Positions 56 to 19,127 of a stretch of 25,060 bases of DNA are shown in pieces. This stretch comes from a virus. Every line of letters starts with the position of its first letter. The stretch's first letter is position 1. Where the stretch lies: the IMG/VR virus record IMGVR_UViG_3300003690_000527, positions 1 to 25,060 of that record; one strand, written 5' to 3'. The notes under the pieces are model-generated. The model was not told the origin of the DNA. It did not search any database and was given only the letters and a program-made list of their open reading frames with translations. The translations under genes were made by a program, and so were the position numbers.

Positions 56-913
56 TCACAAGCCGCACCCGCCCTCGCATTCCGCCATAAAAGCGAACTC
101 GCCTTGGTTTTCGTCTAGGTTCGCATCAGCCAGCGGCTTACAACTGCGATGGATAAACAGGTCTGCGTCGACCTTCCGCTGCAATACGACCCCCTCACGC
201 CGCAACGCGTCGTCAATTTCTACCGCACGGCTCCACCCCTTCGGGTCGTGTTCTTTGAGTGCCCGCCATTCGCGATTCGACTTATACGGGCAAAATACGC
301 ACGCCGACCTTGGTACGTGATGAGGCACGCGATCCCGTAAATATGCGGCGCAGTCCGCGCGGTTCCATTGTATGTCGATCAATGGAAACCCGACCCGCCA
401 GCCGCGTTGATCAAATCGCCCCTTCGCGCGTCCCGCTCGCCCTGGTTCGTCGAAACTAAACCCCATGTATTGAGTGAACGTCACACCCTTTGGTATCCGC
501 TGCCGCGGCTGCAGCCCGATTATGTCGCGACGTATGATTCGCTCGACTACTGCGACCTTATATTCTCTCGTACATTGCCGCTGAGTTATTCCCGTTTTCC
601 CTGTTTCGTTGTTTATAGTGAACGCCGGTATAGACGTGAATTGCTGTCCTGTTGAGTTCTCGCCCCTTGCTACGTCGTCACCAATACAACCGGCGGTCCC
701 TTTTAGTATTGGCGCGCCGCCCTGTTGTCCTAGCCATTCAAGGTGGCTATACACCGCGTCGGGCTCGTCCTGCGTGTCGGCGAAAACCGCGTGCGTAAAC
801 CGTACGCCCGTCTCGTCGAACAGTTCGCCGGTAACGTCCAGCAAATACAGCGCGCTCGACTGTACACCTGCGCCCAAATTCAAAATATGGTATTCGCTTT
901 TAACGCTACCCAT
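56..913 (-). CDS. PAPS-reductase-family (adenine nucleotide alpha hydrolase) protein
   Basis: This 285-residue protein belongs to the PAPS reductase/PP-loop superfamily common in phages. A modified PP-loop LGAGVQSSAL (13-22) binds the nucleotide; HAVFADTQDEP (41-51) and RQCTREYKV (112-120) follow; SACVFCPYKSNREW (203-216) has a CxxC pair. More cysteines (258, 279, 283) make a metal or Fe-S site possible. The family includes DndC-like DNA sulfur-modification proteins as well as enzymes of unknown role, so true sulfate reduction is not implied. I chose ATG 913 because GGGGTGG is upstream; 43 extra residues in frame precede it. It is translated from the same mRNA as the 92-residue protein. Confidence 0.83.
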   Translation of the reverse strand: MGSVKSEYHILNLGAGVQSSALYLLDVTGELFDETGVRFTHAVFADTQDEPDAVYSHLEWLGQQGGAPILKGTAGCIGDDVARGENSTGQQFTSIPAFTINNETGKTGITQRQCTREYKVAVVERIIRRDIIGLQPRQRIPKGVTFTQYMGFSFDEPGRAGRAKGRFDQRGWRVGFPLIDIQWNRADCAAYLRDRVPHHVPRSACVFCPYKSNREWRALKEHDPKGWSRAVEIDDALRREGVVLQRKVDADLFIHRSCKPLADANLDENQGEFAFMAECEGGCGL

Positions 914-1184
914 CACACCACCCCGCCGCAGAGAATTCAAAAACAGGCCACCCCAGCCACTTGCGTCGCACGTTTTTTCTGCGGGCCATAATCGAACCAT
1001 CTTCAGGCCAGGCAAACGTGCCAAGCAGCCCCTGCGTTTCATGCGTGACGGTCACGAAATCCCAGCCAGCGGCTGCCCTGCCCCTGGCAAACTCATCAGC
1101 CTCGGCAACGGTGCCAAATTTCTTTGTCGTGACTTCCTGGATCAAACCATCGAAGCTGTCTGCATAGTGCGCTGCGAATTTCAT
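906..1184 (-). CDS. Unknown small protein, 92 aa
   Basis: Unrecognised 92-residue protein: MKFAAHYADSFDGLIQEVTTKKFGTVAEADEFARGRAAAGWDFVTVTHETQGLLGTFAWPEDGS followed by a basic MARRKNVRRKW stretch. The first 60 residues suggest a small alpha/beta fold. ATG 1184 has GAAAGG 9 bases upstream and follows promoter P1. The stop overlaps the next gene's start by 8 bases, so the pair is probably cotranslated, and this protein may be a partner of the PAPS-reductase-like enzyme. Confidence 0.65.
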   Translation of the reverse strand: MKFAAHYADSFDGLIQEVTTKKFGTVAEADEFARGRAAAGWDFVTVTHETQGLLGTFAWPEDGSIMARRKNVRRKWLGWPVFEFSAAGWCDG

Positions 1185-1382: not shown

Positions 1383-1898
1383 TTACAAGGAAATGCCCCA
1401 AGTGGCTGCAACCGCTTTGCCTGCATCGGTAAACTTTATGACCGCTTCGCCTGGCTCCACTTCGTGCGTTGTGATCCATCCGCGTTTCTTCATATTGCAA
1501 ATGTACCCATTGTTGGCAGGCGTGCCTGCCCCGTTCACGTTGGCGTGTTTCACCCATGGCGACCCGTCCCAATTTCTGGCGTCAGCGGCATACTCAAGGA
1601 ATCGCCCCAGAGTGCCGTGCTGCCCTTTCCGGTCTTTAGAGGCAACGCCAATAAATTCACGGCTCTGGCCACGCAGATACTCCAGATCACGGTGATACTG
1701 CCTGTTTTCGCGGTTGCTATGCGAAACCATCTTATCGATTTCTTCCTGTGTCCCATTGCTTGGAAATGCTGCAACTAGCATTCTGTCATATTCGCTGCAC
1801 TCATCCCGCACCGCTTGCTGATTCCAATCGCCAAAAGCGATTTCCCAGTCGTCTGTCTCTTTTTCCTTGATTACCAGCGTCCAGTATTTGCCTGTCAT
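1383..1898 (-). CDS. Unknown 171 aa protein, possible C-terminal winged helix
   Basis: Unrecognised 171-residue protein. It opens MTGKYWTLVIKEKETDDWEIAFGDWNQQAVRDECSEY, continues as polar helices, and ends with GAGTPANNGYICNMKKRGWITTHEVEPGEAVIKFTDAGKAVA, whose helix, turn, KKRGWI and beta-hairpin look like a winged-helix DNA-binding layout. ATG 1898 has CGAAAGG well placed, preceded by the AACCAC leader. It overlaps the previous gene by 4 bases. It could be a regulator of the block; confidence in that is low. Confidence 0.6.
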   Translation of the reverse strand: MTGKYWTLVIKEKETDDWEIAFGDWNQQAVRDECSEYDRMLVAAFPSNGTQEEIDKMVSHSNRENRQYHRDLEYLRGQSREFIGVASKDRKGQHGTLGRFLEYAADARNWDGSPWVKHANVNGAGTPANNGYICNMKKRGWITTHEVEPGEAVIKFTDAGKAVAATWGISL

Positions 1899-2284
1899 TT
1901 TTTCGCCTTTCGATTGTGGTTGTGGTTGTGGTTGTGGTTGCTGATTCGTTGCGCCAGCTCAATTTCCAGCCGTCGGGAAAGGTAGCCGCGTTTCGGCGGG
2001 CCAAAGAATTCACGATCGGCCGCGTCCTGTAGTTCGGCACCGAGTTGAATTCCCTTCTCGAAAGCGACGAGCCACTCGTGCATCTCTCCCGTAGCAAGCC
2101 GGTCCGATACACAGTGCTCGCCCTCCCTGTCGGTTAGCGTCCGCCTTGCGATGGACTGAAGCGGTCGACCCGGTGGCCGCATGAGGCGTGCCCGTCCTAA
2201 TAGCCAGTCCAGCTCGAAAGCAATGCCCGTCAGATCCGCGAGCCGCTCCGTTATTCGTTCGCAGTCTTTTTTTGTTCGTCTCAT
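1895..2284 (-). CDS. Unknown 129 aa protein with His-Asn repeat tail
   Basis: Unrecognised protein, 129 residues, charged and helical (MRRTKKDCERITERLADLTGIAFELDWLLGRARLMRPPGRP). The C-terminus reads SNHNHNHNHNRKAKK because the gene runs through a (TGTGGT)4 tract (1915-1938) that also serves as the leader of the next gene. The tail might bind metal, but it may also be a by-product of the overlap. ATG at 2284 has GGGAGAG 6 bases upstream. Its TGA overlaps the next ATG (ATGA). Confidence 0.6.
   Translation of the reverse strand: MRRTKKDCERITERLADLTGIAFELDWLLGRARLMRPPGRPLQSIARRTLTDREGEHCVSDRLATGEMHEWLVAFEKGIQLGAELQDAADREFFGPPKRGYLSRRLEIELAQRISNHNHNHNHNRKAKK
1915..1938 (-). repeat. (TGTGGT)4 hexamer repeat, coding and leader
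   Basis: Four perfect TGTGGT units on the plus strand, read as AACCAC-type repeats on the minus strand. They encode (His-Asn)n in one gene and form the C/A-rich leader just before the GAAAGG site of the next. Shorter versions occur before the genes at 2636, 2284 and 1184. Confidence 0.9.
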
Positions 2285-2740: not shown

Positions 2741-2780
2741 AAAAAAGGCTGCGGCAGATGGAAAACCACCCACCGCAGCC
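2741..2780 (-). terminator. Rho-independent terminator ending the late operon
   Basis: On the minus strand an 8-bp GC stem (arms 2773-2780 and 2747-2754, GGCTGCGG/CCGCAGCC) with an 18-base loop is followed by TTTTTTT-C at 2741-2746. It lies 80 bases past the methyltransferase stop and just before the promoter of the small-gene block. It separates the structural/glycan operon from that block. Confidence 0.85.
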
Positions 2781-2859
2781 CCCACCTTCCTGGCCGTGGC
2801 ACCAGGAAAAGAGCATGGAAATCAAAACAGATCAGCCACATCGATTGCTTTGTGCCGTT

Positions 2860-3366
2860 TTATTTGGTTGCGATCATTCGGAAATCACGAATCGGGAAAT
2901 GATGCCGCGCCGGCTTTTCTTCTATTTGCTTCGGCTTGAAGCCTGCCAGCAATAGGCTTTCTCTTAGGCTCTCTGGAGTGTATCCCCAGCGATGGCAAAA
3001 CCACTCCGACCGATGGCCAGGATCCCCATATAGTGGCCACATGGAAAATTGCTCTGGATGATCGCGTGGCGGATCCACCAGGCCAAGCAGCACGCGAGCA
3101 GCGTAAGCAATATTCGGCTGTTCCAAAATCAACTGACCGCCCGGCTGCAGGATCCCAAAAAACGACCGCAATAAATCGATCGCCTGCCAACGGTAGAAAT
3201 GCTCGATTCCGTGTATCAGCTCTATTGCTTCCCACCTTTCTGCCAGAACGGAATCCGGCAACGGCGGAATCGTTGCCACAATGTCCGGCGCTGTGCGCGC
3301 GTTGCAATCCAGCGTCACCCATCCGGCCCGCTTAGTGCGGCCGGCGCACACAATCAACTTATTCAT
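2860..3366 (-). CDS. SAM-dependent methyltransferase (glycan-type class I)
   Basis: This 168-residue protein fits the short predicted class I methyltransferases found in polysaccharide clusters. Its layout is GWVTLDCNARTAPDIVATIPPLPDSV (15-40), IHGIEHF (51-57, like the usual H.lEHf), and ILQPGGQLILEQPN (72-85), followed by a lid region (GHRSEWFCHRWGYTPESLRESLLLAGF). The usual glycine-rich loop before the first acidic residue is absent because the protein starts there, as in COG4627-like proteins. It would cap a sugar or another hydroxyl with a methyl group. It is the last gene of the late operon; a strong terminator lies 80 bases downstream. Target unknown. Confidence 0.75.
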   Translation of the reverse strand: MNKLIVCAGRTKRAGWVTLDCNARTAPDIVATIPPLPDSVLAERWEAIELIHGIEHFYRWQAIDLLRSFFGILQPGGQLILEQPNIAYAARVLLGLVDPPRDHPEQFSMWPLYGDPGHRSEWFCHRWGYTPESLRESLLLAGFKPKQIEEKPARHHFPIRDFRMIATK

Positions 3367-4000
3367 ATTTCCACCGATCCAGCACGGCCCTTTCCTGCTC
3401 GCAAATCAGACGATTGACCCACTTGGGACAATCCACACCACCGGCCGAAGCGTTGACCATATTTAGGCGGAATTTCAGCACGGCCTTTTCCTGCTCTTTC
3501 GTCAGCCCTGCACCAACTGCCTGCAGCAGTCGAATCAAATCCTTTGCGATTGATTCTTGTTTCCCGATATGGCTGATTTTCCTGCAACCAGGCGGCCCGG
3601 TATACCACTCACACATCCTAGAAAAAAAAGCCGGCTGCCGCTCAAATGTCGTTTCTACGAATTCAGGAAAGGACAAACCACGCTGCAGCTTTGCAACGTG
3701 AAATGGATGCCAAACTTCCTTGTTGATTCTGGCTGGATCGCCTTTATCGGTATCAATCCACTGCCAGACAGATTGCCACCAGGCAACCGGGTGGCGAACA
3801 AAGACCACCGTCCTTTCCTGTGATAACTTCAGCCGGCGATCGCGTAGGTGCCACCAGGTGGCGTGCCTTACATGCGAATCGCCACAGCGTACCGGAATCA
3901 ATACCAGGCCGGCGTGACGCAACGAATCGGCAACCCAACAGCCGGCGGTTTTAGGGATATGCAAAATGCAGCATCTGGAACCTCTTATATTCCACGCCAT
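3359..4000 (-). CDS. PAPS-dependent sulfotransferase family protein
   Basis: This 213-residue protein carries the two PAPS-binding signatures of the sulfotransferase superfamily. The 5'-phosphosulfate loop is HIPKTAGCWVADSL (14-27), the IPKT.G type found in glycan sulfotransferases. The 3'-phosphate motif VVFVRHPVAWWQSVW (65-79) carries Arg69 and Ser77. HIGKQES (144-150) resembles the later h-G-yE segment. It would move sulfate from PAPS to a hydroxyl, probably on a sugar. ATG at 4000 has AGGTGA upstream, formed partly by the preceding TGA; an in-frame ATG 29 codons earlier lies inside the glycosyltransferase gene. It overlaps the methyltransferase by 8 bases. Sulfotransferases are uncommon in phages. 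Confidence 0.83.
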   Translation of the reverse strand: MAWNIRGSRCCILHIPKTAGCWVADSLRHAGLVLIPVRCGDSHVRHATWWHLRDRRLKLSQERTVVFVRHPVAWWQSVWQWIDTDKGDPARINKEVWHPFHVAKLQRGLSFPEFVETTFERQPAFFSRMCEWYTGPPGCRKISHIGKQESIAKDLIRLLQAVGAGLTKEQEKAVLKFRLNMVNASAGGVDCPKWVNRLICEQERAVLDRWKYE

Positions 4001-4004
4001 CGAC

Positions 4005-4640
4005 TCACCTGCCTTGCAGCCTAAAGAGATCCGGCCGCCGGCCGCCGGCGAACCGGTGAAACGGAATCCCAGAATTCCGCAAAGCAACCGGCAGCGTGAT
4101 CTGGTCGCGTGCCGTTGTCCGTTTCATCAGATCCCACCAGGCCCGCATCAGATCATTTGACCTTTCATCGATTCGCCTCAAAATGAATCCGCCCCAGAAC
4201 AGCCCCCAGCGTGGCGGGTGCCCTATCTCATGCCGCAGAAGCTGCGCAGCAGCCTGCAGCTTTTGCTTGTTGTCTTTTTTCTTACTGATGCAGGCCCTAG
4301 CTTCGTGATAGATGCAGCGGCGCGAGTGTTCAACCAATGCAATCGATTCACTGAAGCCGGCCAGCAAGGCCACCGGATCAGACATCAGACGACAATGGGC
4401 ATCAATCCACAAGATCGCAGAAGCATGGGGCAGGTGCTCATTTGCGAACAACTTAAAGCGCTTAGCCTGCCATACCGCCGGATCATCAGAACGCTTGACC
4501 AGGTGCAACTGCCATGGCTCTCTATGCTTCAGCAGCCGATCAGAAAACGCATGATATTCGACGAAATCAGAAACGACGTTTGGCGTATAAAGCGATCGGC
4601 GGCGCTGGCCAATCGACGCCGTGACCACACAGACAGTCAT
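4005..4640 (-). CDS. DUF616-like (TOD1/MUCI70-type) glycosyltransferase
   Basis: This 211-residue protein has the layout of DUF616 proteins, predicted glycosyltransferases known from plant and bacterial polysaccharide clusters. PAVWQAKRFKLFANEHLPHASAILWIDAHCRLMSDP (54-89) gives the donor-binding region with a DxH motif in WIDAH. EHSRRCIYHEA (104-114), RWGLFWGGFILRR (144-156) and WWDLMKRTTARDQITLPVALRNSG (168-191) match the usual order. Its ATG overlaps the previous stop (ATGA), so it is coupled to the two-domain enzyme. No membrane segment is present. The acceptor is unknown; probable partners are the Ser/Thr-rich tail proteins or a surface glycan. Confidence 0.8.
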   Translation of the reverse strand: MTVCVVTASIGQRRRSLYTPNVVSDFVEYHAFSDRLLKHREPWQLHLVKRSDDPAVWQAKRFKLFANEHLPHASAILWIDAHCRLMSDPVALLAGFSESIALVEHSRRCIYHEARACISKKKDNKQKLQAAAQLLRHEIGHPPRWGLFWGGFILRRIDERSNDLMRAWWDLMKRTTARDQITLPVALRNSGIPFHRFAGGRRPDLFRLQGR

Positions 4641-6610
4641 GCCAGCACCTGCTGCATTTTCTCCAGCCAGGCCGCGTGCGTGAACTGTCTTTTCGGCGGC
4701 TTGTGCGCCAGTGCCTTTTCCAGCCAGGCGGCAATTTTCGGAACGCTGGTAAAGTCTTCAACAGGTGCGCAAACATCAGCAAGGCCAGGCCACAACGAAA
4801 CGACGGCCGGCCGGTCAGTGCAAAGAACAGGAATTCCGGCCGCCGCTGCGTTGGCTATCTTTACTTGTGGTTTTCCGATCTGGTTTAATGGCGTGGCATA
4901 CGGCGGCAGCCGAATGGCCAGCACCAGGCTGGCCCCCTGCAGTGATCGCCAGGCGTGGTGCGCATGATCAAAAACAACCTGCCGGCCAATCCTTTTGCCG
5001 GCTTCGGTGATGGCTGCCCGATATTTCTCAACAAACACACGGCCGCCGGCGTAAACGATCGGCCCGCCAGGATCACGCCAGCCAGGCTGGACCCTTGGAT
5101 CAGCCGCGTGCGGCACCATGTGAACGGTGACGCCTGGCAGTGCTGCCCGCATTGAATCGGCCACCGCTGGAGACGTTGCAATCAATTCATCGAATTCATG
5201 CCGGCCGTGAATCATTTGCCAGTATGCTTTCGGATCCATTCGCATGTGCTGGCGATTATCCCACCAGAGATCCATCACGTCAAGAATCAACCGCTTGCAC
5301 TTCTGCCGCATCACTGGCGGGGGTGCGCACTTCACAGCCAGGCCCACTGCGAAATCGTTTTTCAGTTCCACTTTCCCCCGGCTATTTTTAACCGGCCAGC
5401 CAGAGGCCGCAACGATCGGCTTGCCACGCATCCCAAATCCGCCGAATGAAGTAGGGCCAACCACCAGGCCGGCGTGCCCGTTGCTCTCAGGTGGCCTGGC
5501 TTTGATCTTCACCTGGTGATCAATGCCAGCGTCATCGATGATCTTTTGCATCTTTGCTTCACTGATTGCCGGCCGATTTCCGCGCATACCAAGGCCGCCG
5601 CAGAAATGATCAACAATCGCCTGAATATCCATTCCCAGTTCGGACCAGCCAAGCAGCACGTTGCGAATCTTCTGCTCGCGTTGTGGCCGGTGCGGCACTC
5701 CGCCTGGCCGTTGAAACTTATGCACCCACCGCAAACCAGGATGGCAAAGCACCTGGCCGCCACGCTGCCGCACCTTTTCGTGTATATAGCCCTCACCGCC
5801 AGAGAAGCCAACCAGGCCAGGATTGAAGCCAGGCCAAGCTGCACGCCTCATAGCAAAGCAGCCGAGACCGTGCATAGGGATTTCAAACGGCGGCCCGTTT
5901 GGATCCTGTGTGCGTTCATCGCGTGCCCATGTGCCAAACATCTCAGAGCGCCACTGCGGCCGCATCATGGCTTCTGCTGTGCCGTTTAGTGAATTCGATA
6001 CCATCGGCCCATGGATCAAATCGCTTGATTCTGGATTATCTTTGATCCATGCCAGCAGACGAGCCAGGCTACCTGGCGGCAATAATACATGGGAATCAAT
6101 GCACAGCACCCATTCCCCCCTGGCAACTTCAAATAGATGGCCCCTCGGTGGGCAACTGCCTTTCGGCTCTGGAAATTCGACATACCTGCCAACCCCTTTG
6201 CAGGCCCCTTCAATAAACACCTTGCAGGCCTTGCCGTCCTTACTTGTCGGATTGTTATCAATCACCACAATCTCACAAAGGTGCATAATGTCCTGGTGGT
6301 AAATCCGCAACGCTTGCACCGAATACCAGACGCCCTCAAAATCATCGAAACAAGCCATTCCGATAGTCAGTTTTGGTGCCTGTTTCATCTGTTTGATTTC
6401 TTCCCAAAGGCCCACCGGGCACCGTTCTGACTGCCAGGCTGCTTTCATCTTTAGCCCGCAGCCGCATTTGCTGCACTGCCATTTTCCAGGCCTGCGAAAG
6501 CGGCAAGGCCGGCACACCGCCAGCCTTGCTTCGTAGGCCTCATCGCTTACCTTTTTCCTGCCGCTGCGGATGTGACGCGCAACGGCTCTGGCAAACCTCA
6601 CCGGCTTCAT
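4637..6610 (-). CDS. Zinc-ribbon + GT2 + GT-B bimodular glycosyltransferase
   Basis: This 657-residue protein has three parts. Residues 30-70 form a zinc-ribbon-like module (CRPC, CSKCGC, C64 in SERCPVGLWE). Residues 80-325 form a family-2 transferase: IGMACFDDFEGVWYSVQALR, VVIDNNP, a DxD-like segment CIDSHVLLPPGSL at 170-182, HGLGCFAMRRAAWPG and FSGGEGYIHEKV, with a WVH motif. Residues 385-657 form a GT-B-like domain (VVGPTSFGGFGMRG, SPAVADSMRAALPG, VPHAADP, VKIANAAAAGIPVLCTDRPAV). It would move sugars from nucleotide-sugar donors to an acceptor. ATG overlaps the repeat-protein stop (ATGA); its TGA overlaps the next gene. The glycine- and arginine-rich middle (FCGGLGMRGNRP/FGGFGMRGKP) looks duplicated. 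Confidence 0.85.
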   Translation of the reverse strand: MKPVRFARAVARHIRSGRKKVSDEAYEARLAVCRPCRFRRPGKWQCSKCGCGLKMKAAWQSERCPVGLWEEIKQMKQAPKLTIGMACFDDFEGVWYSVQALRIYHQDIMHLCEIVVIDNNPTSKDGKACKVFIEGACKGVGRYVEFPEPKGSCPPRGHLFEVARGEWVLCIDSHVLLPPGSLARLLAWIKDNPESSDLIHGPMVSNSLNGTAEAMMRPQWRSEMFGTWARDERTQDPNGPPFEIPMHGLGCFAMRRAAWPGFNPGLVGFSGGEGYIHEKVRQRGGQVLCHPGLRWVHKFQRPGGVPHRPQREQKIRNVLLGWSELGMDIQAIVDHFCGGLGMRGNRPAISEAKMQKIIDDAGIDHQVKIKARPPESNGHAGLVVGPTSFGGFGMRGKPIVAASGWPVKNSRGKVELKNDFAVGLAVKCAPPPVMRQKCKRLILDVMDLWWDNRQHMRMDPKAYWQMIHGRHEFDELIATSPAVADSMRAALPGVTVHMVPHAADPRVQPGWRDPGGPIVYAGGRVFVEKYRAAITEAGKRIGRQVVFDHAHHAWRSLQGASLVLAIRLPPYATPLNQIGKPQVKIANAAAAGIPVLCTDRPAVVSLWPGLADVCAPVEDFTSVPKIAAWLEKALAHKPPKRQFTHAAWLEKMQQVLA

Positions 6611-6676
6611 GGCCCGCCAGGCCCGCCGCCTGGTATGGTCTCCGGCGTTGTCAATACTGGCTCAGGCGTTGTAGTT

Positions 6677-6742
6677 GTGCTTGAGCTGCTCGTGCTTGAG
6701 CTGCTCGTGCTTGAGCTGCTCGTGCTTGAGCTGCTCGTGCTT
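6677..6742 (-). repeat. 15-bp tandem repeat, four copies (Ser/Thr coding)
   Basis: Four perfect 15-base units (plus strand GTGCTTGAGCTGCTC) at 6677-6691, 6692-6706, 6707-6721 and 6722-6736, plus a partial copy. The length is a multiple of three; in the ending frame each unit encodes TSSSS-type residues. Recent slippage or expansion is likely. Confidence 0.9.
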
Positions 6743-6776
6743 GTCGTCGGTGGGTGCGTTTGTCGGCGCTGCTGTT

Positions 6777-6839
6777 GTGCTTGTGCTTGAGCTGCTTGTG
6801 CTTGTGCTTGAGCTGCTTGTGCTTGTGCTTGAGCTGGTA
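6777..6839 (-). repeat. 21-bp tandem repeat, three copies (Ser/Thr coding)
   Basis: Three 21-base units (plus strand begins GTGCTTGTGCTTGAGC) at 6777-6797, 6798-6818 and 6819-6839, the last with three changed bases. It is the upstream half of the Ser/Thr-rich stretch and is related to the 15-bp array. Confidence 0.88.
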
Positions 6840-6921
6840 CTGGAGCTGCTTGTGCTGGTCGTCGGCAGGCAGCAGCACTCTGCGTCAGTGATTCGCCAGC
6901 CCATTGGTCACGCCTTACAAA

Positions 6922-7788
6922 TTAGCCACATTCTTCGACGCCACAAATGTGATCATCTTTGATGCAAATTTCTCTTGTGCAAACGACAATATCGTTATCT
7001 TCACAATAGACGTTTGTGACCACATAGATCGACGTATAACCGGCAGGACAACAAACCGGCGGCGCAGTAGTTGGCGGCCCGGTGGTGGTTGTCGGTGGCC
7101 CGGTGGTGCTGGTGCTGGTGCTTTCTGGCGGCAGCGTCGTTGTCGGTGGGCTGGTAGTGCTCGTTGGATCTGGCGGCCTTGTGCTGCTTGTTGGTGGGCT
7201 GGTGGTCGTCGTCACGCAAATAGGGATATCGCCAGAGGGATTGGAAACGCGAACCAGTGCCCACTGCGAACCCGTGCCACCTTCGCGCCAAAGAATATGC
7301 GCAGCGCCTACGGCCGTAGCGTAAAGGTGGCCGGTTGTCTCATCAGCAATATCGGCGTAAAGGTAGCCCGTGGCATCTGCTTCTACGAATACTTTGCAAG
7401 CCACCAGGCCGCACGCCAGGCCCTTTGCCACCTGGCCCTGTGGTGCCGGCTCCAGCAATACAACAAATTTACCGCAGTGGCTTGCTTCGCTGGGAACCAC
7501 TCCAGAGTAGATTGATTGATTCGTGAAACTTTCAATATTATCATCATCAAGATCGGCCGGATTGAACAACGGCCCATCGATTCCCACAATCGAAAAGCGG
7601 CCTAGATCCAGCCCGGTATTGTTTTTGACAAGGCAAAGGCCACTGCTGCGATGATCAGCCGCGAATGATGCAGCATCCGACGCGCCACCTTTTACCAGCC
7701 GCGTGGCGTCAATGAAGGCGTTATAGGCTTCTGCAGGAATTTCAAGCCGTTCACCGCGCTTGACTTTTTTGAAAGCATCACCCGGCAT
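6922..7788 (-). CDS. Tail stalk/tip protein with Thr/Pro linker and Cys-rich C-terminus
   Basis: This 288-residue protein has three parts. Residues 1-190 form a globular domain (LCLVKNNTGLDLGRFSIVGIDGPLF... and VGAAHILWREGGTGSQWALVRVSN) similar to sequences I recall from planctomycete-like phages. Residues 192-242 are a Thr/Pro/Ser linker with TTTTSPP and TTTTGPP units, extended and potentially O-glycosylated. The last ~46 residues form a Cys-rich tip (CCPAGYTSIYVVTN...CEDNDIVVCTREIC...CGVEEC), likely cystine- or metal-stabilised. Its position after the tape measure and before glycosyltransferases suggests a receptor-binding or tail-fibre role. The ATG begins 3 bases after the upstream stop. 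Confidence 0.75.
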   Translation of the reverse strand: MPGDAFKKVKRGERLEIPAEAYNAFIDATRLVKGGASDAASFAADHRSSGLCLVKNNTGLDLGRFSIVGIDGPLFNPADLDDDNIESFTNQSIYSGVVPSEASHCGKFVVLLEPAPQGQVAKGLACGLVACKVFVEADATGYLYADIADETTGHLYATAVGAAHILWREGGTGSQWALVRVSNPSGDIPICVTTTTSPPTSSTRPPDPTSTTSPPTTTLPPESTSTSTTGPPTTTTGPPTTAPPVCCPAGYTSIYVVTNVYCEDNDIVVCTREICIKDDHICGVEECG

Positions 7789-7791
7789 TGA

Positions 7792-8592
7792 TCAGATTCC
7801 CAATAATGTTAAGTTTTTTTCTTCATAGACCTGCTCGACATAGGCAGCCAGTGGCGTGCGAATCATCTGGTTTGCTTCACCGTCTTCACCTTCGCGATAC
7901 CACACCCATAAATAATCCCAGCCGCGTTTCAGCGGAACAGTGATTAAATCACCGATCGGTATATCTGTGGCGCTAGGTGACGCGGCGAATTTGAAAGTCA
8001 ATTCGTATTGATCATGTTGCCGCAGTGATCCAGACGCGCCAAGAAAAAGCACTTCACCAACGCTAAAGCCCTTATATGTCGCGTTGTTCACAGATCCGGT
8101 AAGGCTAAAAATGGTCGCCTTATATGCGGCCGTCACGGCACTGGCCGCGACATAATGAGTTTCCTGGAAATTGTACTGCGGGATGGTAATCTGGCAGCCT
8201 TCAACTGCTCCAGATGTGACGTTGATGGCACCTTTGAAATCTGGCGCACCATCACGCAGCGGGCTGGTGCTAGATCGTGTAAGCAAACTATGCTGGATCT
8301 GTGAAGTGCCGCCGCCAGTATCAAAAGAGAAACTAGAATCATCAGTTTCAGGCTGCTCCATTTTCCCCCATTCGACTTCACCCGCCCACACGTCATCAGA
8401 CAGCCGCTCATTGATCCTGACCGATTTTTTGATAAGGCCGCCGGCGGTGTCGGCCGTGGCCGTATCAAGCTCATCATACGCTTCAAACTCGTCATCAGTC
8501 CCGCGTATGACGTACTCCGATTTTATCGACGCAGCATCAGAAGCTTGCGAAAGCTCTGATCCTTCCCATCGCTGGTGAACTGTAACCGGCAT
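7792..8592 (-). CDS. Distal tail / baseplate-type protein, unknown family
   Basis: Unrecognised 266-residue beta-rich protein directly downstream of the tape measure, where siphophages encode the distal tail and tail-associated proteins. Visible segments are AASIKSEYVIRGTDDEFEAYD, FKGAINVTSGAVEGCQITIPQYNFQETHYV, a beta stretch with GSVNNATYKGFSVGEVLFLGASGSLRQHDQYELTFKFAAS, and an ending with WDYLWVWYREGEDGEANQMIRTPLAAYVEQVYEEKNLTLLGI. No catalytic motif. ATG 8592 is preceded by GAGGGG; a GTG one codon earlier is possible. Role as baseplate or tail-tip subunit is inferred from position. Confidence 0.65.
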   Translation of the reverse strand: MPVTVHQRWEGSELSQASDAASIKSEYVIRGTDDEFEAYDELDTATADTAGGLIKKSVRINERLSDDVWAGEVEWGKMEQPETDDSSFSFDTGGGTSQIQHSLLTRSSTSPLRDGAPDFKGAINVTSGAVEGCQITIPQYNFQETHYVAASAVTAAYKATIFSLTGSVNNATYKGFSVGEVLFLGASGSLRQHDQYELTFKFAASPSATDIPIGDLITVPLKRGWDYLWVWYREGEDGEANQMIRTPLAAYVEQVYEEKNLTLLGI

Positions 8593-8602
8593 CACTTACC
8601 CC

Positions 8603-10702
8603 TCAATTAAAATGTGGAACCCCACCAATCTGCAGCAGCTTTTTCGTATTCTTGGCCGTCAGTTCTGTCCATTTCGCCGTGCGTGCCGCGTGCCTGGCAT
8701 TGCCAAAACCACGCAGAGCAAAAACAGAAAAGGCCCCCTGTGCTTTAATTCCTGACGACTCCCCGGCACCGGCCATATTGTCTCGCATTTCTTCCCAATC
8801 CGGCGCACCTGGTTTTTTTGCTTTCGGCAGCTTCTTCTCCCCTTTCGCCCTGGCTTCTGCTGCCTCATCAAGTGCCGCCTGCCATTCCTTTTTCGCCTTA
8901 TCTAACTTGCGGCCCGTTTTATCCATCTGCCGATCGCGTTCCTTATCATTACTGCGCTGTTCCTTGTTGTGCATATCGGCCAAATTTCGTTGCGTCCCCA
9001 TTCGATCACTTTCAACGCCGGCCAATTTTTCTTCTCTTTCTATTTCATTGGCGGCGATCGTTTCATTTCGTTTTTCATCTTCGCCCGCCAGCAGTTCCTT
9101 TTCTCGTTTTTCGATTGCCTGTTTTTTATTCCATAACTTTATCCATTTCCCTTCATCTGCAGGATCGTCACTGAATAGCACCCTATCCATTTCTCTCTGT
9201 GTCTGCCACTTTTCCCATGCTGCAACCATTCGGAACATGCTCTTGTGGAAAAAATGAACGAAGGTCGTCCAAGCGTCTTGGTAAATGTGCACCGTATTGA
9301 TCCAGTGGCTGGCCATTGAAGCCTGGGCGTTGATCATCATTGTCGAAAGCTGAAAAACAGCTTCGCTCCAGACGTTAAGGAAAGCAAACTTAAAATCTAT
9401 CCACATGCCCATTAGTGCAGCAATTCCGCGCTGCCATTCCATCTTCAGCGTAAGCCAGAGCACCTTGGCCGCCAGCGCAAGATCACCGGCCGCCAGCGCG
9501 TCACCGATTCCCCTAAATGCTTTTATCGCTGTATCCTTCAAATCCAGAAAACGCTTTTGCAGCCACGTTAAGAGCCGGCCAACAAAGCCAAGCGATTGAT
9601 TACCGACATCACCGATCCAGGCCATCAGCCGCCCCCATTGGCCAAAATGGCGAAGGATCGCAACCACGGCCACTGTGATACCAGCCAGAGCTACAATCCA
9701 CGGATTGAACAGCGCAGCCAATGCAATGCCGCCGACTGTGGCCAAAATCCCCATCAGCGTACCAAGCACGCTGCCAAGAAATACAAACGCGGCAGCGATG
9801 GCACCCAAAACCGCACCCAATGAACTGACAAGCACGCCAACCAAAACCAAAGCCAGACCGGCAGCAATCAGCACGCCGGCCACTTTTGCAACCAGGATAA
9901 CCAGCCGCTTATTGGCCTTGACGAAATCAAGGACCCTTTTCGCACCGTCTGTAAATTTCTTAAATAGGTCCGTCAGCATTGGCGCAAGTGCTGCGCCTAT
10001 TTTTATAGCTGTCATCTTTGCAACGCTCTTAAACCGCGTAAGCGCATCAGTCAATTCTGCGGCTGCTGTTGTATCTTCTGCACTCATTACAATGCCAAGC
10101 CTTTTGGCCTCTTCCATCATTGCTATCAAGCCATCTTTTCCATCTTTAAGCATAGGCAACAAAAGCGTCCCAGCCCTACCAAAAAGGATCTGTGCAAGCG
10201 CTGCTCTATCTGTTGCATTTTCAACTTGAGACAAAGCCGAGACAGTTTCCATAAATAGCTGTTCGGTGCCCTTTAGGCTGCCATCTGCGTTTGTGACTGA
10301 TACTTTCAAAAAATCAAACGCATCCTTCGATTCCAGAACGCCCCTTGAAGCATCGTAAGCAGACCTTGATAAACGTTTCATTCCCTTCTCTATATCTTGA
10401 AGACTTGCACCGCCAATCTGTGCAGCGTGTGAAAGAGCTGATAGGAACTCAACAGAGGCACCAACCCTGGCCCCCATTTTATCAAGCTCATCGCCGGCTT
10501 TCATAAACGCCCGAACAGCAAGCACCAACGGCGCAGCAATCAGAACGCCGATTGACATCATACCCATGCCCACACGCCGCACACTTGCGCCGAAGGCTTT
10601 TAGCCTGGCTGAAGCCGCTTTCAATCCACGCACAAGCGCAGAATTGTCAGCAAATATCGAAACGTATGCGCGACCCGCTCGAATTGCCCCGGCTTTAGCC
10701 AT
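8603..10702 (-). CDS. Tail tape measure protein
   Basis: This 699-residue protein fixes tail length and forms a channel for DNA. It opens MAKAGAIRAGRAYVSIFADNSALVRGLKAASARLKAFGASVRRVGMGMMSIGVLIAAPLVLAVRAF, a typical tape-measure start, followed by SALSHAAQIGG and helical repeats. A long hydrophobic region (about residues 268-350) has several potential membrane segments. Residues 520-650 are highly charged coiled coil (EKREKELLAGEDEKRNETIAAN). ATG 10702 has GAAAGGATG upstream. With the rule of thumb of 0.15 nm per residue, the tail would be about 105 nm, so a medium siphophage tail. Confident call. Confidence 0.9.
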   Translation of the reverse strand: MAKAGAIRAGRAYVSIFADNSALVRGLKAASARLKAFGASVRRVGMGMMSIGVLIAAPLVLAVRAFMKAGDELDKMGARVGASVEFLSALSHAAQIGGASLQDIEKGMKRLSRSAYDASRGVLESKDAFDFLKVSVTNADGSLKGTEQLFMETVSALSQVENATDRAALAQILFGRAGTLLLPMLKDGKDGLIAMMEEAKRLGIVMSAEDTTAAAELTDALTRFKSVAKMTAIKIGAALAPMLTDLFKKFTDGAKRVLDFVKANKRLVILVAKVAGVLIAAGLALVLVGVLVSSLGAVLGAIAAAFVFLGSVLGTLMGILATVGGIALAALFNPWIVALAGITVAVVAILRHFGQWGRLMAWIGDVGNQSLGFVGRLLTWLQKRFLDLKDTAIKAFRGIGDALAAGDLALAAKVLWLTLKMEWQRGIAALMGMWIDFKFAFLNVWSEAVFQLSTMMINAQASMASHWINTVHIYQDAWTTFVHFFHKSMFRMVAAWEKWQTQREMDRVLFSDDPADEGKWIKLWNKKQAIEKREKELLAGEDEKRNETIAANEIEREEKLAGVESDRMGTQRNLADMHNKEQRSNDKERDRQMDKTGRKLDKAKKEWQAALDEAAEARAKGEKKLPKAKKPGAPDWEEMRDNMAGAGESSGIKAQGAFSVFALRGFGNARHAARTAKWTELTAKNTKKLLQIGGVPHFN

Positions 10703-12830: not shown

Positions 12831-13899
12831 CTATCGTGGCAACGCTGAAGCACCAGGCAGCGCGCCACGTTGCGGCCTGGTGTCAAAATCTAGCTTGATC
12901 GGATCCCCTAGCTTGTACCGTTTTGAATCGATTACCGCGCCGGATCGATCCCTGATCTGTACAGGAATTTCAACCTGTGCCAGAGCTGCTGCAACTAAGC
13001 CAGCCACCTGGCCAGGCGTTGTGCCTGGTCGCTGCTTTAGCACCTGGCCCACAATCGCCTGCACTTCGGCCTGGCTGATCGCCCCCGGCCTGGCCTGCAG
13101 CTCTGCAATCTGCCGCTGTAAATCTGCAATCTGTTTCTGGATCCTGTCAGAGGCCGGCGGCTTCACTTCCACCAGTGGCGGCGCTGCGTCAATCGCCGGC
13201 GGCCGAATCGCACCAGGTGCCGGCTGGTCAAGGCCAGGCGATGGCTGCCGGCTGCGGCCTGGCCGCAACCAATAGAACGGCCCCTTGCCGCTATAGCATC
13301 CCTTGCCGAAGCAGGAAACGTGATAATCGACCAAATTCTGACGGCTTCCGCCTAGTGATTTCGACAAAGTGGAAGCAAGCACGGCCGTCGTTGTCCCGTC
13401 GCCAGGTGAAGAACCCCAAAGATTTCCAATCAATTCGCCGGCATCATTAAAAACCGGGCCACCGCTATCACCCGACACCGAATAAGGCGTGCAATCGAAC
13501 CAGGTGCGACCATGCCCGAAAGGCCCCGAAAAGCCTCTGACCTTTCCCTTGTGCCAAAGTAGCTGGCCGCTGCCGCCATATCCGGCCCGCCAAACCAGAT
13601 CATTTGCCTGCGGATCCACAGCAGCCAGCAGCACGCCCCTGTGTGCCGCCACCGTGCAGGCTGATCGATTGCCGGCCGCCGATCCGGTGCGAATCTCTGA
13701 CCACATGATGAGCAGTCAGGACCAGGCCCCGGCCAAGATAGACGCCGCTGCCAAGATCGAAGCCGCTGCCGGTCTGGCATCGCACGCGGCATACGTTTGA
13801 TTGCCATTGTGCAATTCGTTGCGGCAGCTCTCCAGCAGCCAGCCAGGTGCACAGAAACAACCACACGGCCACCGTCGTCACACTTTTAATAAATCGCAT
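12831..13899 (-). pseudogene. Secreted trypsin-like serine protease with coiled-coil tail, frameshifted
   Basis: Two frames together form one S1-family protease. The first (ATG 13899, AAAGGATGG upstream) gives a signal peptide (RFIKSVTTVAVWLFLCTWLAAG), GSGVYLGRGLVLTAHHVV with catalytic His65, and runs on through ISLHGGG. The second (+1 frame) supplies AAVDPQANDLVW (catalytic Asp), the nucleophile motif SVSGDSGGPVF, then a Pro-rich linker and a coiled coil (DRIQKQIADLQRQIAELQAR). Removing one base from the G run at 13636-13639 joins them as TQGVLLAAVDPQ, giving about 355 residues. The shift is therefore a one-base insertion, a sequencing error, or a programmed event. If expressed intact it would act outside the cytoplasm. 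Secreted trypsin-like proteases are rare phage cargo. Confidence 0.8.
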
Positions 13900-14624
13900 T
13901 TTCCCATCCTTTGATTCGCCGCCTGGTACTCGGCCAGGCTTTCGCCCATATCGCACCAGGCACCGCTAAACCGATGCGCCGCCAGGCGGCCTTCATAAAT
14001 CAACATCTGATTCAATTCACTAATTTCAAGCTCTCCACGATCTGAAGGCGTCAGGCTCCCAATCAGATCAAAAACGTCAGCAGGGTACACGTAGGCACCC
14101 GTGACAACCTGTTGCATCGTGCCGGCCAGGTGCTGCGGCTTCTCAACAATCTGCCGGATCTGGCCGGCTTCATCTTCGATTGCCACGCCATACGCCTCTG
14201 GCCTGGCGTGCTCTGTCAGGAAAACAGCCGCCTGGCTGGCCGGATGATCGGCCAAGATGTTACGCAGATGACCTTTTACCCACGGCAACGGGAAATAATT
14301 GTCACCAAGCACCACAAACAACGGGCCACCGGCGCAAAAGCCTCTAGCCCTGCCAAGTGCATCAGCAATGCCTGCCGGCTTCTGCTGGACACTATAAAAC
14401 ACATCTAGCCCATATTCCGCACCATCGCCAAGCACGTTGGCCATTGGCGCGAAATGATCGCCACCCATAACCACCAGCACTTCGCTGACGCCGGCGGCCG
14501 CCATCATGCTGACGGGCCATTCGATCATCAGACGATCACCAACTGGCAGTAAATGCTTGTTTGTGGCTTTCGTCAATGGATGAAGCCGGCTACCTGTTCC
14601 GCCGGCAAGGATCACGCCTTTCAT
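13878..14624 (-). CDS. Sugar-1-phosphate nucleotidylyltransferase, RmlA-like
   Basis: This 248-residue enzyme would join a nucleoside triphosphate and a sugar-1-phosphate (canonically dTTP plus glucose-1-phosphate) to give an activated sugar. The signature loop GGTGSRLHPLTKATNKHLLPV (8-28) carries the nucleotide-binding Gly-rich turn and catalytic Arg/Lys. QQKPAGIADALGRA (80-93) binds base and sugar, GDN (107-109) is the metal site, and VEKP and TGAYVYPADVFD follow as usual. It is shorter than classic RmlA (about 290), lacking the C-terminal extension. Its ATG overlaps the lipase stop (ATGA); its end overlaps the protease start by 22 bases. No other dTDP-sugar gene is visible, so the product may feed the glycosyltransferases at 4005-6610 or host pathways. 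Confidence 0.87.
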   Translation of the reverse strand: MKGVILAGGTGSRLHPLTKATNKHLLPVGDRLMIEWPVSMMAAAGVSEVLVVMGGDHFAPMANVLGDGAEYGLDVFYSVQQKPAGIADALGRARGFCAGGPLFVVLGDNYFPLPWVKGHLRNILADHPASQAAVFLTEHARPEAYGVAIEDEAGQIRQIVEKPQHLAGTMQQVVTGAYVYPADVFDLIGSLTPSDRGELEISELNQMLIYEGRLAAHRFSGAWCDMGESLAEYQAANQRMGKCDLLKV

Positions 14625-15409
14625 TTTGCCGACTCCAGATGCAAGCGGTGAATATAGTTTTCAATATCGTGATCAACTGCAGACTGGCTGGCCCACTTAA
14701 ACACGCCGCGCCCGATGTTTCGGTATCGGTCCCAAAGCACGCGAGCCAGACCAGGATTGACCATACGCCGGCCAGTGTGGGCCAAGTATTGCGTAGAATG
14801 CCGGCACGTTTGCCTATACTTGCCGACCAGGCCAAGCAGCGACGGCATACGCGCAACCATATCATTCTGGTACACCACACGGTGCGAAATATCCCGCGCC
14901 CGATGATCGTAAATCGTTGAAAATGAACGATTGCCCGTCATTGGCTTGCCAAACGTATAACAGCCGGCCACTTGTCTTTTTTCTGCAATCAATCTGGCCG
15001 TGGCAATCTCTGCAGCAGCCCCGCCAAGGCTGTGCCCAGTTATAAAAATCCGCCGATCGTCAAAAACGTACAAAGCGTCGTTTACCAGTTCCCAGATTTT
15101 GCTAACGTACTGATCGAAACCACGGTGTACCTTGTCACCGTTCCCGAATGGGCCAGGCACTTGCCGCACCTTCGCATCTGTCAGCCAGTCGGTGATTGAT
15201 GTGGTGCCACGCCAGGCGAGCACAGCCGTATGGTCATCAGCCGCCAGGAACGCTTCAGTGCCTTCTGTGTGATACGAAACAGCCAACGGCAGCCCGGTTG
15301 TAGTGCACCAGGCGTCCTGATCAATGGGCGTGCCGTAGGCTGCTTTGCAAAAGCGAGCCAGCCAGGTGGCCGTCATCGGATCGAATTTACCGGATTTCAG
15401 TTCAATCAT
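14621..15409 (-). CDS. Class 3 lipase (alpha/beta hydrolase)
   Basis: This 262-residue enzyme hydrolyses ester bonds, most likely in acylglycerols or other lipids. It shows the class 3 lipase order: AVLAWRGTTSITDWLTDAKV (63-81), VHRGF (94-98), the nucleophile elbow GHSLGG with Ser127, YTFGKPMTGN (151-160), Asp183 in QNDMVARMP, and His247 in the terminal DHDIENYI motif, so the Ser-Asp-His triad appears complete. No signal peptide is present. ATG at 15409 overlaps the upstream membrane-protein stop (ATGA) with GGAAA before it; a long upstream extension in frame is a shadow. The stop overlaps the next gene the same way. Coupling to a holin-like protein suggests envelope lipid attack at lysis; virion or capsule modification is an alternative. 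Confidence 0.88.
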   Translation of the reverse strand: MIELKSGKFDPMTATWLARFCKAAYGTPIDQDAWCTTTGLPLAVSYHTEGTEAFLAADDHTAVLAWRGTTSITDWLTDAKVRQVPGPFGNGDKVHRGFDQYVSKIWELVNDALYVFDDRRIFITGHSLGGAAAEIATARLIAEKRQVAGCYTFGKPMTGNRSFSTIYDHRARDISHRVVYQNDMVARMPSLLGLVGKYRQTCRHSTQYLAHTGRRMVNPGLARVLWDRYRNIGRGVFKWASQSAVDHDIENYIHRLHLESAK

Positions 15410-15657
15410 TTTCCTAACTCGATCGCTCTCAGTCTCTTTTCGTGATCCTTTAACGTGCGAGAATGCAACTCGCCTTGAATTGAATGCCCCTGCACCCTGC
15501 GATCGATTCGCTGCACCACTTCGCTGATTCCCTTCGTTTCTGCTTCGGTGCGTCTTACCGTGCCATGTACCGTTGCAAGCCACCAGGTACCGCCAAGGAT
15601 CGCGCCAAGTAGCGTTGCCAAAATCGTCACGCTGCCGATTAAATCCATATTGCCCAT
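15406..15657 (-). CDS. Single-TM coiled-coil protein, holin/spanin-like candidate
   Basis: This 83-residue protein has one membrane segment near the N-terminus (about residues 7-28, LIGSVTILATLLGAILGGTWWL) and a charged coiled-coil tail (RRTEAETKGISEVVQRIDRRV...LKDHEKRLRAIELGK). This shape is seen in XhlA-type membrane lysis proteins and some i-spanins. Its stop overlaps the lipase start by ATGA, so the two are translationally coupled. AGGG lies 6 bases upstream of ATG 15657. No partner holin or second spanin subunit was recognised nearby, so a lysis role is inferred from shape and pairing with a hydrolase; a membrane anchor for assembly is possible. Confidence 0.65.
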   Translation of the reverse strand: MGNMDLIGSVTILATLLGAILGGTWWLATVHGTVRRTEAETKGISEVVQRIDRRVQGHSIQGELHSRTLKDHEKRLRAIELGK

Positions 15658-15669
15658 ACTTGGCCCTGT

Positions 15670-16224
15670 TCATCTGGTCACGCTATTTTTCCACATCTTC
15701 GGCAGCTTCGGCAATTCCTTATCACGCGCCGGCCCCATGAAAGGACGTGGCGCAATCCTAATACGACGACGCACGCGCCGGCCCCGCCTGCCTGCAATCA
15801 TCACGGTTGCCGTGCCACCCTCTTCCAATGTCCTTGGCGCTTCGCCTGACGACCTGGCCGCAGCAATCGCCGGCCCGATGATCACCGTCTGGCGTTTTGT
15901 GTCATAACCAAAAAATATGTTCCGTTTCAGGATCTTTGTGTGCGTCCTTGGCGGCTTGCCAATGTCCGACGACGCAAACGGCCTCTTCGGCATTGGCCCG
16001 CCGTACCTTTTCGCCTGGCCCTTTTGCCTGTTGTACCGCTCTAAGACCTTGCCTTTCATTTCGTGCTGTTTCATTCGCCTGGCTGGCCTCATTGAAGTCT
16101 GTGCCGTTCTTCTGACGAAAGAACCAAACTTAGAGAGCACCCGCCTTTCCGCATCACCGACGCGGCGCATCACCGGGCCAGAATCAAAAAAAGTTTTCGC
16201 GCTGATTGAATAATCTATGGCCAC
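15670..16224 (-). CDS. HK97 gp10-like tail-completion protein (minor tail)
   Basis: This 184-residue, strongly basic protein belongs by layout to the HK97 gp10 / gpZ-like group that helps join heads and tails. The group shows an N-terminal helix around VMRRVGDAERRVLSKFGSFVRRTAQTSMR, a middle basic region, strand KRQTVIIGPA, and an ending RPFMGPARDKELPKL that matches the typical RPFL-PAL signature. A GTG at 16224 has AGAGGG seven bases upstream; a TTG at 16230 overlapping the previous TGA is the alternative. The stretch AGRRGRRVRRRIRIAPRP is unusually arginine-rich and might touch DNA or negatively charged subunits. Confidence 0.72.
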   Translation of the reverse strand: MAIDYSISAKTFFDSGPVMRRVGDAERRVLSKFGSFVRRTAQTSMRPARRMKQHEMKGKVLERYNRQKGQAKRYGGPMPKRPFASSDIGKPPRTHTKILKRNIFFGYDTKRQTVIIGPAIAAARSSGEAPRTLEEGGTATVMIAGRRGRRVRRRIRIAPRPFMGPARDKELPKLPKMWKNSVTR

Positions 16225-18716: not shown

Positions 18717-19127
18717 TTAAGGCGCTCCGGTGGTGGTGGTTGTTGTTACGGCTTCCTGCTCGAATTCCTGTGTGTGAACGCGAAGCACAGAGCCATCAAT
18801 TGACGACCAGGCGAAATGCTGCTGGCCCACCGGGCCAAGCACCTCATGCACAAATCGAATACTGCCGATCACTTCCTTGATCTGATCGCCCCGATCTGGC
18901 TCTACGATGTTTCCATCCAGAACCAGATCGGCAGCCTTTACCAGATAATCGCGCACCTTTAGCCGCACCATAGATCCAGCATCGTCGATGGCTTCCATGC
19001 TAGTGGTAGCCGGCACGGCCGTGATCGTCACGCTATCAGCGCCACGATGGTACGAAACCGAAACCCCGGCCACCACTCGATTCGACTCAAAGGCGCGCAA
19101 TTGCGCCGCTGCATGGGAATTTGCCAC
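18717..19127 (-). CDS. Head-tail connector, lambda gpFII-like candidate
   Basis: This 136-residue protein contains VSYHRGADSVTITAVPATTSMEAIDDAG, a middle segment VRDYLVKAADLVLDG, EPDRGDQIKE, and WSSIDGSVLRVHTQ near the end. That series resembles the small head-tail joining proteins of many siphophages, which cap the portal after packaging and bind the tail. The start is GTG at 19127 with AGGGAA overlapping the capsid stop. The C-terminus carries an odd VTTTTTTGAP tail encoded by a GGTGGT/GTTGTT tract. The stop codon abuts the next ATG (TAAATG), suggesting coupling. The family call is from remembered similarity. Confidence 0.7.
   Translation of the reverse strand: MANSHAAAQLRAFESNRVVAGVSVSYHRGADSVTITAVPATTSMEAIDDAGSMVRLKVRDYLVKAADLVLDGNIVEPDRGDQIKEVIGSIRFVHEVLGPVGQQHFAWSSIDGSVLRVHTQEFEQEAVTTTTTTGAP

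Follow-up and report, generated by a model that had tools for sequence, protein, structure and literature searches.

The window analysed here, a complete virus record of 25,060 bases in IMG/VR (IMGVR_UViG_3300003690_000527), carries a cassette of minus-strand genes (positions 2860-7788) in which two Ser/Thr-rich proteins, referred to below as stalk proteins, are encoded together with a glycosyltransferase (GT) and three putative tailoring enzymes. The cassette is a real and conserved gene set, and its gene content and order, the linkage of the GT to Ser/Thr-rich genes, and the predicted fold and metal residues of the GT make it probable that the cassette glycosylates the virion stalk of the phage itself. 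The transcription order is stalk 1, the Ser/Thr repeat gene, the zinc-ribbon/GT-A/GT-B gene, and the DUF616, sulfotransferase-like and methyltransferase-like genes, followed by a terminator-like hairpin:

6922-7788, minus strand: stalk protein 1, 288 residues, with an N-terminal domain (approximately residues 1-185), a Ser/Thr/Pro mucin-like stretch (approximately 194-246) and a Cys-rich C-terminal domain
7057-7209, minus strand: Ser/Thr/Pro-rich stretch of stalk 1, proposed O-glycan acceptor (53 residues: 21 Thr, 15 Pro and 8 Ser)
6607-6904, minus strand: stalk protein 2, Ser/Thr repeat, in two frames (one from 6904 to a stop at 6662, a second to a stop at 6607)
6401-6610, minus strand: N-terminal zinc ribbon of the GT (DUF6171/phrog_13558)
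5573-6385, minus strand: GT-A domain, GT27-like, with D-S-H and a distal His (Pfam GT2 PF00535, profile and model)
4637-5550, minus strand: C-terminal GT-B-like domain, proposed extending glycosyltransferase (weak Glyco_trans_1_2 match, E 0.027; kept in the relatives L238 and L287)
4005-4640, minus strand: TOD1/MUCI70 (DUF616) glycosyltransferase-like protein (PF04765, E 1.5e-8)
3359-4000, minus strand: sulfotransferase-like protein of the type using 3'-phosphoadenosine 5'-phosphosulfate (PAPS), with HIPKTAG and VRHPVAWWQS
2860-3366, minus strand: S-adenosylmethionine-dependent methyltransferase-like protein (weak Methyltransf_23 match, E 1.2e-4)
2744-2783, minus strand: intrinsic-terminator-like hairpin with an 18-bp stem, recognised in the sequence, which closes the cassette

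Stalk proteins and their linkage to the glycosyltransferase

The Ser/Thr/Pro stretch of stalk 1 is encoded by mixed codons and measures 53 residues in the window, approximately 150 in L238 and approximately 120 in L287; stalk 1 thus has the long stretch, kept in composition and variable in sequence, that we took as the mark of a mucin-like protein. Its N-terminal domain is kept at 36% in L238 and at 32-33% in L287 and L349, and the stalks of L349 and L356 reach approximately 980 residues. The position of the gene in the tail module, together with locus L002, where a Thr-rich stretch shares a polypeptide with a weak, below-cut-off match to Phage-tail_3, suggests that the stalk belongs to the virion. 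The second protein that had been described as Ser/Thr/Pro-rich, stalk 2, is not a single open frame, though it is Ser/Thr-rich in both frames; the switch lies near position 6770, between two tandem repeat arrays, and may reflect a lesion, recoding or an assembly error. Its counterparts in L287 and L238 have an open frame and an additional C-terminal domain.

Uncultivated viruses and bacteria hold a large family of proteins to which the GT-A domain belongs. A close-relative scan of viral contigs with the GT returned one locus, L002, whose GT domain is 47% identical. There the GT immediately follows three Thr-rich proteins of the tail region, although the tape measure of this virus is an unrelated one. 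Scans of this kind with three other proteins of the window (DUF616, sulfotransferase and portal) returned no match. A motif-pattern search of viral contigs yielded at least 119 loci, and 117 of the 121 loci collected carry the GT, including L001 (the window's own) and L002. In an independent genome collection, 99 matches were obtained with a profile of 50 family sequences and none with a two-sequence profile. The isolate phages of INPHARED gave no match to the GT at E 1e-5, nor to two other members of its family, and none to the sulfotransferase, the stalk or the gene at 7792. One marine clade of the family is exonuclease-adjacent (L004, L007, L010, L016, L024, L029, L031 and approximately 30 more loci).

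The gene directly upstream of the GT was frequently Ser/Thr-rich, defined as at least 18 Ser/Thr within 30 residues, with same-strand upstream neighbours counted on greedy open reading frame (ORF) calls from partial contigs. Among the matches listed, such a gene was found at 32 of 101 viral loci, versus 14 of 631 at the other eleven positions (Fisher's test, 1.4e-19); the proportions were 23/71 versus 12/442 after reduction at 90% identity and 8/19 versus 4/116 at 60% (p 1.2e-5). The bacterial loci of the genome collection gave 11 of 44 versus 3 of 364 (p 1.9e-9). The enrichment was confined to position -1, with none at -2 to -6 or +1 to +6, and in the GT tree the Ser/Thr-rich upstream state was scattered over deep branches, that of the window included. 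Adjacency of stalk and GT therefore exceeds chance and lies far above background in both collections.

Approximately 20 viral stalks directly upstream of the GT, among the matches listed, carry the same kind of Cys tag at the C-terminus (CPEDPDCNNLQF, ICPEDPDCNNLQF and KCPPKSCNILGF are examples; the loci include L113, L121, L020, L040, L087, L008, L094, L115, L018 and L045), which is perhaps a signal for enzyme docking or attachment. A short poly-Thr end was also seen on the head-tail joining protein, in the window (18717-19127, minus strand, VTTTTTTGAP) and in L238 (15390-15794, minus strand, ITTTTTTAGA), and is a possible second glycan acceptor site. In Rhodococcus sp. P-2 (L345), an exported-looking protein (7335-7904) with an apparent twin-arginine signal and a Ser/Thr/Pro/Gly-rich tail is encoded beside a GT of the family (7944-10028), and L343, L348 and L354 are similar; this pair is a possible cellular, non-phage version.

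Predicted fold and metal site of the glycosyltransferase

The GT gene (4637-6610, minus strand) encodes a zinc ribbon, a GT-A domain and a GT-B-like part on one polypeptide. The initial annotation had described it as a zinc-ribbon/GT2/GT-B enzyme, and this held: DUF6171 and Pfam GT2 (PF00535; 40.3 bits against a gathering cut-off of 23.3) were both found, the GT-B-like part being recognised by a weak match. The position of the zinc ribbon varies in the family, being a separate ORF in L238 and L287 and C-terminal in L043 and L349.

A resemblance to GT27, the family that initiates eukaryotic mucin-type O-glycosylation, is new relative to that annotation. When the two-sequence profile was compared with the PDB, it matched the polypeptide N-acetylgalactosaminyltransferases GalNAc-T10 (E 1.7e-4) and GalNAc-T7 (E 3.3e-3), and in the alignment both DSH and the distal His fell on their counterparts. 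The triad D112, H114 and H237 (D-x-H...H) is invariant in 50 of 50 family sequences, the EGYIHEK columns being invariant by selection, as this motif was used to collect the sequences. The Mn site of polypeptide GalNAc-transferases (GALNTs) has Asp/His/His ligands (PMC4202792, PMC6115407), which the D-x-H and distal His of the phage family match. The GT-A model built from 50 sequences had a predicted local distance difference test score (pLDDT) of 91.8; an earlier two-sequence model was poor (pLDDT 51.6) and its structure matches were not used. All of the top 50 Foldseek matches of the 50-sequence model in the PDB were polypeptide GalNAc-transferases (best E 3e-14; TMq, the query TM-score, at most 0.72), at 14-19% sequence identity to the GT27 structures.

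Conservation of the cassette and its putative tailoring enzymes

The cassette lies downstream of the tape-measure gene and closes the tail module, next to two further genes that serve as landmarks:

8603-10702, minus strand: tape-measure protein (PHROGs "tail length tape measure", E 1.2e-43)
7792-8595, minus strand: tail-region gene upstream of stalk 1, a synteny marker (57% in L238, 58% in L287, 38% in L349)

L287, from a Planctomycetota metagenome-assembled genome (MAG), has stalk 1, stalk 2, zinc ribbon, GT, DUF616 protein, sulfotransferase (E 6.5e-23 to that of the window) and methyltransferase, in an order identical to that of the window. L238 (the record of L111) reads tape measure, gene 7792, stalk 1, stalk 2, zinc ribbon, methyltransferase, GT, DUF616 protein, methyltransferase and methyltransferase-like protein; its GT is 51% identical, the Ser/Thr stretch of its stalk 1 is far longer than that of the window, and a methyltransferase occupies the position of the sulfotransferase, which is absent. 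The neighbourhood search proposed in the initial annotation thus recovered the full set in L287 and all but the sulfotransferase in L238. The loci L349 and L356, from Planctomycetes MAGs, share with the window the tape measure, gene 7792, a stalk and the GT. Because the relatives L287, L349 and L356 were binned in Planctomycetota MAGs, the host of the window phage is probably a member of the Planctomycetota.

The DUF616-like transferase proposed from motifs was borne out by Pfam (34.8 bits for PF04765 against a gathering cut-off of 21.4). It is 43-44% identical in L238 and L287, and distant DUF616 homologues occur in isolate phages of Cellulophaga and Synechococcus. The PAPS-type sulfotransferase stood in part. 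Both the 5' phosphosulfate and the 3' phosphate motif are present (HIPKTAG and VRHP..W..S), and an alignment with 22 viral homologues (23 sequences in total) has near-invariant K, RHP, W and S columns, the homologues having been collected by motif with RHP..W as part of the search pattern; the window protein alone, however, had no Pfam match. The ATG at 4000 is the most likely start of its ORF, which had been listed as 3359-4087. Ten of the 23 family members matched Pfam Sulfotransfer_2, and the family profile matched heparan sulfate 6-O-sulfotransferase 3 in the PDB (E 4.8e-4). The methyltransferase had likewise been called from motifs; its relatives in L238 and L287 are 48% identical, but its match to Methyltransf_23 lies below the gathering cut-off (22.2 bits against 27).

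Comparable enzymes were found in other settings. The unrelated virus L082 has a stalk, a GT, a polysialyltransferase-like protein, a GT2 protein and a different sulfotransferase (Sulfotransfer_2, 4e-12), and in L349 and L044 a methyltransferase domain is carried on the GT protein. These neighbours indicate that a sulfotransferase or methyltransferase beside the GT is recurrent and not confined to the window. Behind stalk-GT pairs in general, in a tally that includes some genes of the window and its relatives, we found GT2 proteins, methyltransferases, polysialyltransferase-like proteins, GT6 proteins and Sulfotransfer_2 proteins.

The initial annotation of the cassette was thus confirmed in its gene content and in its gene overlaps, which are of the ATGA type or a few bases among the minus-strand genes at 2860-7788, and was not upheld in the frame of 6607-6904, the start of the sulfotransferase ORF or the assignment of an RmlA-like enzyme to the same operon. 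The RmlA-like gene (13878-14624) shares the strand of the cassette but is approximately 7 kb upstream of it. Its membership is not established, because it is absent from the syntenic L238, and that place lies outside the L287 locus. At 13878-15673 (minus strand), the window has an RmlA-like nucleotidyltransferase and a class 3 lipase where L238 has neither; both were dropped as cassette members, and the block is likely an accessory insertion. Elsewhere in the window, a gene end at 1895-1940 (minus strand) encodes the Asn-His repeat NHNHNHNHNHN in a perfect 6-base tandem repeat, and an ORF at 56-1042 (minus strand) resembles by eye the phage PAPS-reductase/adenine nucleotide alpha-hydrolase type, with no match in Pfam at E 0.1. 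The tRNA and Rfam scans of the window were both empty.

Proposed function, alternatives and relation to known systems

We propose that the two Ser/Thr-rich proteins would be made alongside the other late tail proteins and that the zinc-ribbon/GT-A protein would attach the first sugar to Ser/Thr residues of the mucin-like stretch inside the infected cell. The GT-B-like domain and the DUF616 protein would then lengthen or branch the glycan, the sulfotransferase would transfer sulfate to it from PAPS, and the methyltransferase would cap it. The O-glycans would form a stiff brush on the stalk, methylated and negatively charged. Such a brush may extend the receptor-binding parts, give protection against proteases, or mimic or bind glycans of the host surface. 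The acceptor, the sugar, the order of the steps and the benefit are the parts of this reading that we infer. That the phage decorates its own stalk with a sulfated and methylated O-glycan had already been suggested from the gene content; the GT27-like predicted fold and metal triad, the stalk-GT linkage, the conserved gene order and L082 now add support.

Several observations weigh against this reading. The 50-sequence profile matched TarP/TarS first, over the N-terminal half, and matched no GT27 protein within E 0.01, so that fold and metal residues carry the link to GT27 more than sequence does; the model indicates a GT27-like fold and metal site, and membership of GT27 by sequence is not established. 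No ricin-type lectin domain was found with Pfam, GT-B-like or methyltransferase domains standing in its place, and the second stalk gene of the window has a broken frame. Among the matches listed, approximately 40 loci have a gene of 325-365 residues beside the GT, which was a PDDEXK exonuclease in the three tested; 14 of the 18 exonuclease-type records have no run of ten Ser/Thr codons, and in one of the remaining four it lies outside a Thr run. The initial annotation had named enzymes without a Ser/Thr-rich protein as evidence against its claim, and this marine clade, mostly without such proteins, is a case in point; stalk glycosylation is therefore not a valid reading for the whole GT family. 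Finally, only 4 of 116 poly-Thr loci carry a member of the GT family, which indicates that Thr-rich stalks do not need the GT, and GTs make up only 2 of 111 genes behind poly-Thr proteins. The rule that a Thr-rich protein implies glycosylation was rejected on these counts.

The same low counts would fit Thr-rich stretches that are common phage linkers, with the adjacency reflecting moron genes gathered behind the tail module, but the enrichment is specific to position -1 and recurs in bacterial chromosomes such as those of Rhodococcus, and we consider this explanation very doubtful. It is improbable, in our estimate, that the enzymes modify a surface glycan of the host, leading to superinfection exclusion or a receptor change, with the stalk nearby by coincidence. 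Families such as DUF616, the sulfotransferases and the methyltransferases do also serve polysaccharide synthesis, and the TarP/TarS-like half of the GT profile points the same way; on the other hand, the GT is preferentially found right behind Ser/Thr-rich genes in divergent viruses and bacteria, the genes end the late tail module, the predicted fold is nearest to protein O-GalNAc transferases, and no flippase or polymerase gene was seen in the conserved cassette.

A GT acting on other virion proteins, such as the poly-Thr tail of the head-tail joiner or the tail tube, instead of or besides the stalks, is fairly unlikely. The joiner ends in poly-Thr in both the window and L238, and there is a precedent in mycobacteriophages, described below; however, the stalk gene alone repeatedly adjoins the GT, and the poly-Thr of the joiner is short. 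We give very little credence to hypermodification of phage DNA by the GT family: virus-encoded GTs with that activity have been reported (in a reference cited in PMC12619734), and one clade lies beside the PDDEXK exonuclease in a DNA-metabolism setting, but the GT of the window and of its syntenic relatives belongs to the tail module, and a protein acceptor is suggested both by its GT27-like predicted fold and by the sulfotransferase and DUF616 genes that accompany it.

The proposed stalk glycosylation by the cassette has partial parallels in known systems. Like eukaryotic mucin-type O-glycosylation by GT27 enzymes, it combines a predicted GT-A fold and a D-x-H plus distal His with Thr/Ser/Pro-rich acceptor-like proteins, here encoded next door; unlike GT27 enzymes, to which it is 14-19% identical, the phage GT has neither a lectin domain nor a Golgi anchor, and its polypeptide also includes a zinc ribbon and a GT-B-like domain. 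The TarP/TarS glycosyltransferases of wall teichoic acid are the best sequence-profile match to the N-terminal half of the GT domain, whereas the predicted fold of the full domain is nearer to GT27 and the GT genes of the phage family accompany Ser/Thr-rich proteins. The sulfotransferase family shares the HIPKTGG and RHP...W motifs and a profile match with Sulfotransfer_2 and heparan sulfate 6-O-sulfotransferase, and differs in that the window protein itself has no Pfam match. GtfA and GtfB, which glycosylate serine-rich repeat adhesins, are GT-B enzymes. These adhesins of Gram-positive bacteria (PMC7948813) likewise combine a low-complexity Ser/Thr protein with dedicated intracellular glycosylation enzymes. 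The mycobacteriophages Che8, Corndog and Myrna encode a GT that glycosylates virion proteins (Freeman et al. 2023, as cited in PMC12363180 and PMC12619734), as we propose here for the window phage; there the targets are the C-termini of capsid and tail-tube proteins, and the passages of those two papers that describe the system mention no mucin-like stalk, sulfotransferase or GT27-like enzyme. Phage virion glycosylation is thus already known, from a few phage groups. Within the open-access literature that we searched, no GT27-like enzyme of a phage was described together with mucin-like stalks.

We also put forward, as a conjecture that falls just short of an even chance, that phages and bacteria have a mucin-type O-glycosylation of their own, which shares a common ancestor with the eukaryotic system. 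In this view, a widespread prokaryotic GT27-related family would initiate O-glycans on mucin-like proteins of stalks or surfaces encoded next to it, and the cassettes of phages would extend, sulfate and methylate these glycans. If stalk glycosylation is correct, the cassette would represent a distinct, widespread and so far uncultivated form of virion glycosylation that is built like animal mucins, with a Ser/Thr/Pro stalk, a GT27-like initiator, sulfation and methylation. It would provide a candidate function for a set of poly-Thr genes in viral dark matter and a compact enzyme-substrate pair for producing glycosylated proteins in bacteria, and it suggests where the enzymes that initiate mucin-type glycosylation may have prokaryotic relatives.

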